Assembly (NCBI GenBank): GCA_019347575.1
Contig: JAHWKY010000001.1
Span: forward strand, 1-64,000
Reading direction: 5' to 3'
DNA from: Actinomycetota bacterium
Lineage (GTDB): Bacteria > Actinomycetota > Nitriliruptoria > Nitriliruptorales > Nitriliruptoraceae
DNA: 64,000 nucleotides
Of the stretch, positions 57,256 through 59,318 are shown one piece after another. Position 1 is the first letter of the stretch. Every line of letters begins with the position of its first letter. The notes beneath the pieces were generated by a model. It made no database searches and was not told the DNA's origin. It saw only the letters and a program-made list of their open reading frames with translations. The position numbers and the translations under genes are program-made.

Positions 57256-57300
57256 AGTATCTCATGCTATATCGATGTAGAGAATGCAACCCCGTTGCTG
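57256..57300. promoter_or_regulatory. AT-rich divergent promoter region
   Basis: A short block of about 45 bp, conspicuously AT-rich for this genome, separates the possible upstream ATG (57255) from the sigR side. It contains TATAGC and GATACT on the minus strand and a TTGCAT, but no arrangement has good spacing. It is the likely control point of both directions. Confidence 0.35.
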
Positions 57301-57357
57301 TGGAAGAAGCACCGCCCCGGGCCCGTAGACTCCGGTTCCGGCTACGAGAGGGCGACG

Positions 57358-58002
57358 GTGACGGAGCTGCAGAGCGCCACCTCCGACGAGCCCGTCGTGC
57401 GGCAGGTCCTGACCGACGAGCAACGCCGCGCCGCGTTCGAGGAGCAGGCCCTGCCCCACCTCGACCGGCTCTACGGCGCCGCCCTGCGCTACACGCGCAA
57501 CCCCGCCGACGCCGAGGACCTGCTGCAGGAAGCTTTCGCGAAGGCGTACGCCAAGTTCCACCAGTTCGAACCCGGCACCAACCTGCGGGCCTGGCTCTAC
57601 CGGATCGTGCACACCACCTACATCAACAACTACCGCAAGAAGCAGCGCCGTCCGCAGGAGTCGCTGCAGGACGAGATCGATGACTTCTCGCTGTACGACC
57701 GCGTCCAGGGAGCGGGCAGGTCGGCGGAGTACGAGGCCCTGCGCGAGATCACCTCGGACGAGGTCCGCGACGCGCTCGAGAGCCTGCCTGACCAGTTCCG
57801 CATGGCGGTCTACCTCGCGGACGTCGAGGGCTTCGCGTACAAGGAGATCGCCGAGATCATGGACACGCCCATCGGCACCGTGATGTCACGGCTACACCGA
57901 GGAAGGAAAGCGCTCCAGCAGGCGTTGGCCGGGTACGTCGAGGAGCGCGGACTCGTGCGCCGGGACGAGGACGCATCCGCCGACGGTGAGGACCAGCCAT
58001 GA
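57358..58002 (+). CDS. sigR: ECF sigma factor, SigR/SigH type
   Basis: A 214-residue group IV sigma factor. Region 2 (about 40-110) contains [28 protein letters not shown] and [24 protein letters not shown]; region 4 (about 135-190) contains [33 protein letters not shown]. This matches the thiol-oxidative-stress sigma SigR (Streptomyces) / SigH (mycobacteria). GTG start with GAGAGGG upstream. Its TGA overlaps the ATG of a 22-codon frame that leads into the anti-sigma gene. Confidence 0.92.
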
Positions 58003-58067
58003 CCGATCAGACATCACCCCCCAGGCCGGCAACGCCGGCTCCTCCCCCCTCAAGGGGGGAGGCATGA
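57999..58067 (+). CDS. 22-codon coupling minicistron between sigR and the anti-sigma gene
   Basis: ATG 57999 overlaps the sigR stop (ATGA) and the frame ends at TGA 58065, which overlaps the anti-sigma ATG 58064, again ATGA. The start of the frame (57999-58019) and of the anti-sigma gene (58064-58084) are near-identical, both encoding MTDQTSP, so the minicistron arose by a 65-bp duplication or insertion at the original coupled start. The peptide is MTDQTSP followed by a Pro/Ala-rich tail; probably only its translation matters. Confidence 0.6.
58025..58062 (+). promoter_or_regulatory. Twin hairpins, the second sequestering the anti-sigma ribosome site
   Basis: GCCGGC-AAC-GCCGGC (58025-58039) is followed by a perfect 9-bp stem CCTCCCCCC-TCAA-GGGGGGAGG (58041-58062). 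The right arm is the only Shine-Dalgarno sequence for the ATG at 58064, so it is hidden unless ribosomes translate the minicistron through it. Confidence 0.65.
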
Positions 58068-58342
58068 CCGATCAGACTTCACCCGATCCACATGTCGCTT
58101 GCAGCGAGGCGTTGGCGTCGCTGCAGCTGTTCCTCGACGGCGAGCTCGAACGTTCACGCGTGGACGAGCTCGCCGAGCACCTGGTCGCCTGCGCCCCGTG
58201 CGGTGACCGCGTCGAGTTCGAGCGCCACGTCCGGACGGTGATCCGCGCCGGACTGGAGGGCGACCTGTCGGTGCCGGCCGGTCTGGCCGAGCGGATACGG
58301 GGCTGTCTCGACGACGTCACTCCCTCCGACGACGTGCTCTGA
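58064..58342 (+). CDS. rsrA: Zinc-binding anti-sigma factor (RsrA/RshA-like)
   Basis: A 92-residue ZAS-domain protein. The diagnostic HxxxCxxC is HLVACAPC, preceded by an upstream Cys (CSEALASLQ) and the FLDGELE helix; these residues bind zinc and form a disulfide on oxidation, releasing SigR. The length is usual for RsrA. It lies directly after sigR through a coupling minicistron and before the epimerase (1 nt gap), so the operon is sigR-minicistron-rsrA-epimerase. Confidence 0.9.
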   Translation: MTDQTSPDPHVACSEALASLQLFLDGELERSRVDELAEHLVACAPCGDRVEFERHVRTVIRAGLEGDLSVPAGLAERIRGCLDDVTPSDDVL

Positions 58343-58343
58343 C

Positions 58344-59318
58344 GTGGCGTCCACCCAGAGCGTGCTCGTGACCGGCGGAGCCGGCTTCATCGGTTCCCAC
58401 CTCGTGGATCGGCTCCTCGCGGAGGGTCGACGGGTCGTCGTGGTCGACGACCTCTCCACCGGCAAGCTCGAGAACCTCGCCGAGGCGCGGCGCTCGGCCG
58501 GTGGCAACCTCGAGTTCCAACGCCTCGATCTCACCAAGGGCGCCCTCGACCGCGTCGCGGAACGGCACCGCCCCGAGGTGATCCTGCACCTCGCGGCGCA
58601 GATGAACGTCCGCCGCAGCGTCGAGGACCCACTGCACGACGCTGCCGTCAACGTGATAGGCACGATCGAGGTCCTCGAGGCCGCGCGCCGGTACGGCGTG
58701 CGCAAGGTGATCTTCACCACGTCAGGAGGCTGCATCTACGGCGAGCCGCCGGAGTCCGCCTTGCCGCTACCCGAGACCGCCGACGCCCCGGCGCGCTCGC
58801 CCTACGGGGCCAGCAAACGTTCCGCCGAGGAGTACCTGCGGACCTACCAGGCGCTGTACGGCATGCACTGGACCTCGCTGGCGTTGAGCAACGTGTACGG
58901 CCCCCGGCAGGATCCCGCCGGGGAAGCGGGCGTCGTGTCCATCTTCATCGAGCGCATGTTCGGCGGGCAGCCGTGCGTGATCTTCGGGGACGGCGAGCAG
59001 ACCCGCGATTTCGTGTACGTGGACGACGTCGTCCACGCGCTCGTCCTCGCGATGGACCGTGGTGACGACGAGCGTTTCAACGTCGGCACCGCCGAGCGCA
59101 CCTCGGTGCTGGCGCTGTTCCGCGCCCTCGCGGCCGCCACCGGCTACGACCGCGAGCCCGTCTTCGCACCCGAACGGCCGGGTGAGCTGCGACACAACTC
59201 GATCGACCCGCGGAAGGCCGCTTCCGGGCTCGGCTGGAAACCCTGGACCACGTTGGAGGAGGGCCTGGCTGCCACCCTGGCCTGGTCGGCGGACCTCCGA
59301 CAGGGCACCCGTCCGTAG
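58344..59318 (+). CDS. NAD-dependent sugar-nucleotide epimerase/dehydratase (GalE-like)
   Basis: A 324-residue extended SDR enzyme. Rossmann motif VLVTGGAGFIGSHLVDRLL with the NAD-preferring acidic VVVDDLSTG, the catalytic Ser/Thr in TSGGCIYG and YxxxK in PYGASKRSAEE, and YGPRQDP of UDP-hexose 4-epimerases. Likely UDP-glucose/UDP-galactose epimerase or a related nucleotide-sugar enzyme supplying envelope glycan. GTG start 1 nt after rsrA. Confidence 0.85.
   Translation: MASTQSVLVTGGAGFIGSHLVDRLLAEGRRVVVVDDLSTGKLENLAEARRSAGGNLEFQRLDLTKGALDRVAERHRPEVILHLAAQMNVRRSVEDPLHDAAVNVIGTIEVLEAARRYGVRKVIFTTSGGCIYGEPPESALPLPETADAPARSPYGASKRSAEEYLRTYQALYGMHWTSLALSNVYGPRQDPAGEAGVVSIFIERMFGGQPCVIFGDGEQTRDFVYVDDVVHALVLAMDRGDDERFNVGTAERTSVLALFRALAAATGYDREPVFAPERPGELRHNSIDPRKAASGLGWKPWTTLEEGLAATLAWSADLRQGTRP

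Follow-up and report, generated by a model that had tools for sequence, protein, structure and literature searches.

A dispersed minicistron repeat, probably a translational relay, at the sigR-rsrA stop/start overlap of an actinobacterium

The DNA that separates a sigR-type sigma factor gene from its anti-sigma gene in the 64,000-nucleotide actinobacterial stretch analysed here (the window) is, with a probability of about 0.77, one copy of an interspersed repeat whose units act as relay minicistrons, inserted at a DTGA stop/start overlap in a manner that preserves an ancestral coupling between sigR and rsrA. We delineated computationally the repeat family, the positions of its copies, the closure of the reading frame through them, the direct gene overlap found in relatives and the predicted hairpin structure of the unit, and we consider below how these features bear on the translation of the downstream gene.

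The upstream gene (57361-58002, plus strand; its frame is open further upstream and its start is not fixed) encodes an ECF sigma factor of the SigR type, scoring 268.2 bits against TIGR02947 (cut-off 251.55). The gene beyond the junction (58064-58342, plus strand) encodes a 92-residue protein that scores 26.7 bits against Pfam zf-HC2 (over 22.2) and 51.7 bits against the RsrA model TIGR03988, under the cut-off of 62.5 and the best of five matches in the genome; because of this latter score, we refer to the product as RsrA-like. The zinc site of ZAS anti-sigma factors follows the pattern Cys...His-x3-Cys-x2-Cys. The product fits this motif, with C13, H39, C43 and C46 invariant in an alignment of six sequences. 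The protein lacks two cysteines that are present in its five aligned relatives, the first lying slightly N-terminal to C13 and the second in the later RRxC/SRSC stretch.

At the junction itself, the TGA of sigR (58000-58002) overlaps an ATG at 57999, from which a frame of 22 codons runs to a stop (58065-58067) lying inside the ATGA of the anti-sigma start at 58064, and the resulting unit (57999-58067, plus strand) has an ATGA overlap at both ends. The first 21 nt of the two frames are nearly identical, as part of a 25-nt direct repeat (57995-58019 and 58060-58084; 92% identity, two mismatches) with a start-to-start spacing of 65 nt. This arrangement, which an earlier note on the DNA had read from the letters, is real and non-random, since the recurrence of the unit approximately 64 times in the genome places the pattern beyond chance. 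The window contains a single copy of the repeat.

BLASTN with positions 57900-58345 as query against the source genome (4.89 Mb in 120 contigs) yielded 67 matches, the 66 non-self ones being confined to 57981-58084 at most; a 90-base query, for which the best 40 of 70 candidates were scored, again gave 67, with three of its 66 non-self matches representing palindromic echoes of listed copies. A 24-base core pattern matched the genome 64 times (57 exactly, with no match to the reversed control) and a covariance model likewise 64 times, and the roughly 64 copies group into 40 sites. One pattern match with three mismatches (C5:75737-75760), absent from both the BLASTN and the covariance-model lists, is probably not a copy. 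The core (approximately TCACCCCCC to GGGGGGAGGC) hardly varies, and the segment between the first DTGA and the core differs between sites and is often, though not always, common to the tandem units of one site. The parse into whole units, made without five that lack a start or an end and two at contig edges, comprises 57 units, of which 40 have the usual length of 65 nt, and 36 sites, which hold one whole tandem unit (18 sites), two (15) or three (3). At L120, L124, L126 and L142 the contig begins or ends within the repeat; arrays there may be longer than assembled, and some of these contig ends may belong to a single site.

The earlier note had proposed that the ancestral ATGA junction was duplicated together with an insertion; the insertion stands, and the second 21-nt copy, at the start of the anti-sigma gene (58064-58084, plus strand), is probably left over from a second repeat unit, an origin that seems to us likelier than duplication of the target. 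We considered duplication of the target start region as a general feature of the family and rejected it. When the 11 bases after DTGA were compared between the two ends of 35 sites (L124 was left out), they gave 4.8 matches versus 4.2 in permuted pairings (131 of 20,000 permutations as high) and a common prefix of 6.1 versus 5.3 (5 of 20,000), and this excess of matches vanishes without the three sites of long identity, namely the window, L134 and L137 (4.31 versus 4.11; 4,071 of 20,000). The long identity at these three sites looks like the remnant of a further unit. Alternatively, the native rsrA may have shared this beginning, or the element may have acquired its 5' end from rsrA; the rsrA gene of one family relative (L035/L271) starts GTGACCGATGAG. 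At three places, L134 (2557-2590), L121 (near 2535) and the window (58064-58084), the gene that follows the last whole unit begins with 14-21 nt resembling the 5' end of the element, and the hisC-like gene with such a start encodes a protein a few codons longer at its start than those of the L203 and L205 relatives.

Downstream of the element, 37 of the 40 sites have a same-strand frame of 40 codons or more; the exceptions are L124, which runs into a contig end, a site of L132 (6 codons) and L137 (13 codons). When 36 of the 37 downstream proteins were scanned against Pfam, the 53-codon frame at L149 having been left out, 33 matched a family, among them MoaE, Oxidored_q3 (NuoJ type), LMW phosphatase, PrmA, carboxyl transferase, GatB, class I/II aminotransferase (a candidate HisC-like protein), CtaG, UbiA, RecD, SelA, ATP sulfurylase, NuoG type, semialdehyde dehydrogenase and enoyl-CoA hydratase. 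Across the 40 sites, the element thus precedes mostly genes unrelated to sigma factors. This distribution bears directly on the origin put forward in the earlier note, which held that the duplicated start and the hairpin form a gate dedicated to SigR and RsrA, evolved to make the dosage of the anti-sigma factor follow sigR translation and possibly the availability of proline. The architecture could have such an effect, and the balance between SigR and RsrA translation matters in Streptomyces according to part of PMC5472188; the presence of this unit at 40 sites nonetheless largely refutes a sigR-specific gate as the origin, the coupling is older than the insertion as judged from the loci of relatives, and we consider such a dedicated device quite improbable. 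The proposed link to prolyl-tRNA or ribosome speed finds no support here, the Pro-rich peptide being simply the element's frame wherever it is located, and several sites use a different frame of the core.

The sequence upstream of the element argues for insertion at pre-existing overlaps. At 26 of 33 assessable sites (the 36 parsed minus two at contig ends and one with its first unit unparsed), the stop of an upstream frame of 100 or more codons coincides with the first DTGA of the element, taken as the last DTGA within 60 nt before the core, a definition that leans slightly towards finding one. Element-free codirectional gene pairs overlap at -4 in 16 of 68 cases (Fisher p ~3e-7 against 26 of 33), with this background resting on a crude GC-position gene call that yielded 190 genes and 68 pairs, 16 of them at -4 and 3 at -1; within the window alone, the count is 2 of 23 pairs at -4. 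The remaining seven of the 33 sites show no long upstream frame with such a stop, and DNA this rich in GC can by chance keep 100 codons open.

Through the element, the first DTGA is connected to the last start by a frame or a chain of frames at all 36 parsed sites: 30 close at -4, directly or chained, five are fused in frame to the downstream gene, and one, on the plus strand of L133, has its stop 5 nt after the TTG opening a CtaG-type gene, by our reading a -8 overlap. Among the 30 closures at -4, two last starts open only 6 and 13 codons and a third meets the contig end; the chains at L114, L120 and L126 were started at the first whole unit parsed rather than at the true upstream edge, and at L124 the contig ends within the second unit. 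The four unparsed sites comprise L142, which starts at a contig edge, and three truncated copies that all close at -4, at L149 through a minicistron of 15 codons. Since the copies share common ancestry, closure at the 23 sites composed only of 65-nt units is largely one inherited fact. At the 13 parsed sites with units of other lengths, seven close at -4, five are fused and one lies at -8, and the absence of any failure among them has p ~0.005 under equally likely frames, or ~0.04 if the -8 case is counted as a failure.

A rival reading is a palindromic repeat of the REP kind that would act, if at all, at the RNA or DNA level, for instance in mRNA stability or in the supply of a strong Shine-Dalgarno sequence, with the open frame as an incidental feature. 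Two strong hairpins and a Shine-Dalgarno sequence are in line with such a repeat, as is a GC-rich core consensus in which, by our reading, every frame is free of stop triplets. This reading does not predict that the element sits at DTGA junctions, that its units are usually 65 nt long (2 mod 3; 40 of 57 units) or that the frame still closes after indels and truncation, and we regard it as unlikely. The closure types similarly inform a second possibility, in which the anti-sigma factor would be read from an in-frame GTG at 57986 as a 118-residue protein running through the insertion: the frame is indeed open and in-frame fusions of element and gene occur at five other sites, but this GTG lies inside sigR, and at 30 of the 36 parsed sites the frame of the element terminates in the last DTGA rather than running on, which makes such a start very improbable here.

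At the five fused sites (L129, the minus strand of L133, L138, L143 and L145), a repeat-encoded N-terminal extension of the downstream protein is possible. In a converse arrangement, long upstream frames of 504 and 463 codons extend into the element at L146 (2400-2560) and L148 (2400-2535), respectively, and end at the downstream ATGA; here the repeat would supply the C-terminus of the upstream protein.

Comparison with related genomes points to the state before insertion. Among the sigR-rsrA loci of 80 relatives, 69 overlap directly at -4, eight lie at -1 and three are of another kind or were unread; among 29 loci of the same family, five of which are also among the 80, the corresponding counts are 18 at -4, five other and six unread. 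The same geometry prevails in family relatives, with the source genome left out, at the junctions upstream of the hisC-like gene (29 of 29 at -4), of nuoJ (20 of 24 at -4, with one more locus lacking upstream sequence) and of gatB (20 of 28 at -4 and five at -1, again with one more lacking upstream sequence). BLASTN at an E-value of 1e-3 found the element in none of the relatives' loci across the five sets (80, 29, 29, 29 and 29). Given the direct overlaps in relatives and the absence of the element from all of these loci, direct coupling is likely ancestral and the element a later arrival, as far as can be read from the compared sequences. Anti-sigma synthesis tied to that of sigR, another proposal of the earlier note, is accordingly upheld as to the coupling itself, whereas the direct -4 overlaps at 69 of 80 and 18 of 29 loci of relatives speak against its creation by the insertion. 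The five nearest sigR loci, four from Nitriliruptoraceae and one assigned to Actinomycetota, show 64-70% identity and point to a Nitriliruptoraceae-like host; the relatives listed include none of its genus.

Outside the source genome, the repeat left little trace. In 36 genomes of the order, the covariance model matched the source genome 64 times and three others once each, at 25-26 bits and near chance; in a phylum sample of 396 genomes, with the best two candidates per genome scored, BLASTN gave, besides the source genome, weak short matches (37-39 bits) in 4 of the 395 others, and among 61 relatives it detected only the source genome and one of those four weak-match genomes. The 26-base exact core had no match in viral contigs, plasmids gave no match to the element, and no Rfam RNA family matched positions 57300-58400 at its gathering score. 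Four of the 40 sites lie at contig ends, as an assembly or sequencing artefact might produce, but the flanks differ between sites, which often have their own 5' ends, and most copies sit inside contigs of 30-300 kb, so that an artefact is hardly credible.

The minimum-energy fold of the window junction forms exactly the two hairpins that the earlier note had described, with a 7-bp stem at 58024-58040 and a 9-bp stem at 58041-58062 (both plus strand), the second enclosing, as it had also noted, the Shine-Dalgarno sequence of the downstream gene. GGAGG (58058-58062) lies inside hairpin 2 at 1 nt from the ATG at 58064, and AAGGGGG (58052-58058), which by our reading is the better placed of the two, occupies its loop and 3' arm at 5 nt from the ATG. 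With a z-score of -2.39 and 4 of 200 shuffles as stable, the predicted fold by itself is only moderately unusual for such GC-rich DNA. Across 55 distinct units, hairpin 1 has two pairs changed on both sides and hairpin 2, whose loop varies in length, has none, and covariation, assessed with a structure string that contained one spurious pair (columns 59-62), therefore backs the structure only slightly.

The predicted cost of opening the start region (-12 to +3) is 22.9 kcal/mol at the window site and averages 20.7 kcal/mol at 36 element sites, compared with 10.0 at 35 flank joins and 9.3 at 72 rsrA starts of relatives; when sites common to one locus are merged, it is greater with the element than for the flank join in 31 of 32 pairs. 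The computed mean unpaired probability (0.30 with the element, 0.38 without it, 0.38 in relatives and 0.14 at the window site) separates the start regions less than the opening energy does. With its Shine-Dalgarno sequence in a stable hairpin and a high predicted opening energy, the anti-sigma start should be poorly accessible to de novo entry.

We therefore propose the following model. A short repeat, present as one to three whole tandem units per parsed site, would insert at DTGA stop/start overlaps within operons in the orientation of the downstream gene, each unit constituting a relay minicistron whose start overlaps the upstream stop, whose stop overlaps the downstream start and whose second hairpin would enclose the downstream Shine-Dalgarno sequence. 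In the window, the insertion would have split rsrA from its likely native ribosome-binding site, GGTGAGG (57985-57991, plus strand; 7 nt before the ATG at 57999), an assignment suggested by its sequence and spacing, and this site would now face the minicistron. Ribosomes that finish sigR, or that load at the native rsrA site in front of the minicistron, would read the 22-codon frame across both hairpins, terminate at 58065-58067 and start again at 58064; a ribosome arriving by way of the minicistron would melt the hairpin and come to a halt at the start codon, and the hairpin would make the downstream start costly to enter by any other route. Even the ribosomes that in Streptomyces enter rsrA independently of sigR could here be relayed. 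Mobility of the element, translation of the minicistron and re-initiation at its end are what we infer from this geometry. Since the relay would keep the ancestral coupling, the insertion could be tolerated with the operon unbroken, and most likely the element preserves the sigR-rsrA coupling rather than creating it. The translational gate of the earlier note thus survives, as an inference, in its doubly coupled minicistron and hairpin-held Shine-Dalgarno sequence, and not as a device built for SigR and RsrA, given the 40 sites: the mechanism proposed there broadly holds, but its scope and origin were misjudged.

For SigR/RsrA studies, the case cautions that a junction of remarkable build can be a repeat that has inserted there rather than a regulatory design, although the element may still shift the ratio of sigma to anti-sigma factor. 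More generally, some 40 natural insertions of one cassette would provide a ready-made experiment on translational coupling, recording which frames, lengths and overlaps are tolerated.

In architecture, the family most resembles the mycobacterial interspersed repetitive units (MIRUs), which part of the review PMC12548453, citing Supply 1997, describes as short dispersed repeats at start codons with a unit ORF coupled to the gene at -4, and which in M. tuberculosis occupy 41 locations as 40-100-bp units, as stated in part of PMC2734929. The present units are likewise short, dispersed at about 40 places and often tandem, they are inserted at start codons and stop/start overlaps in line with the genes, and their internal ORF is coupled at -4 to the downstream gene at 30 of 36 parsed sites. 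DTGA sites are reportedly named as MIRU targets in the 1997 paper by Supply. The differences lie in the host, a Nitriliruptoraceae-like member of another class of actinobacteria, and in the core with its two hairpins and buried Shine-Dalgarno sequence. We file the repeat as a MIRU-like element on the strength of its architecture; a narrow keyword search of the literature found no title on such elements outside mycobacteria. According to the same part of PMC2734929, fpg1 mRNA was more abundant where the tandem repeats separating rnc from fpg1 were longer, and such repeats may thus not be neutral. Should the sequence be unrelated to that of MIRUs, it would represent a second case of their way of life outside mycobacteria, and the choice of DTGA targets could be studied elsewhere. 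We give even odds to a broader view in which relay-cistron elements form a recurrent class of selfish, DTGA-targeting repeats equipped with a frame-closing minicistron and a hairpin-masked Shine-Dalgarno sequence, which here, in a deep lineage of actinobacteria, originated separately from MIRUs; selection on the frame, visible as closure retained through indels and truncation or as fusion to a neighbouring protein, would then record the dependence of downstream genes on handed-over ribosomes.

Direct ATGA/TGATG gene overlaps, at which part of PMC6728339 describes termination-reinitiation in the -4 geometry, have that geometry and presumed re-initiation in common with the element; they lack what lies between the genes here, namely a minicistron of approximately 22 codons or as many as three of them in a chain. 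In Streptomyces, sigR and rsrA overlap directly in the -4, ATGA-type manner and are partially coupled, with a dedicated rsrA ribosome-binding site accounting for about half of rsrA translation, as reported in part of PMC5472188. The window locus is similar in that the sigR stop overlaps a start in the ATGA manner, and different in that the likely native ribosome-binding site faces the minicistron and the rsrA Shine-Dalgarno sequence lies in a predicted hairpin. Finally, Rickettsia palindromic elements are small palindromic repeats that are tolerated within coding genes by staying in frame. The five fused sites and the two upstream frames extended into the element recall that behaviour, while the present element differs in residing at gene junctions, where it mostly closes its own frame.
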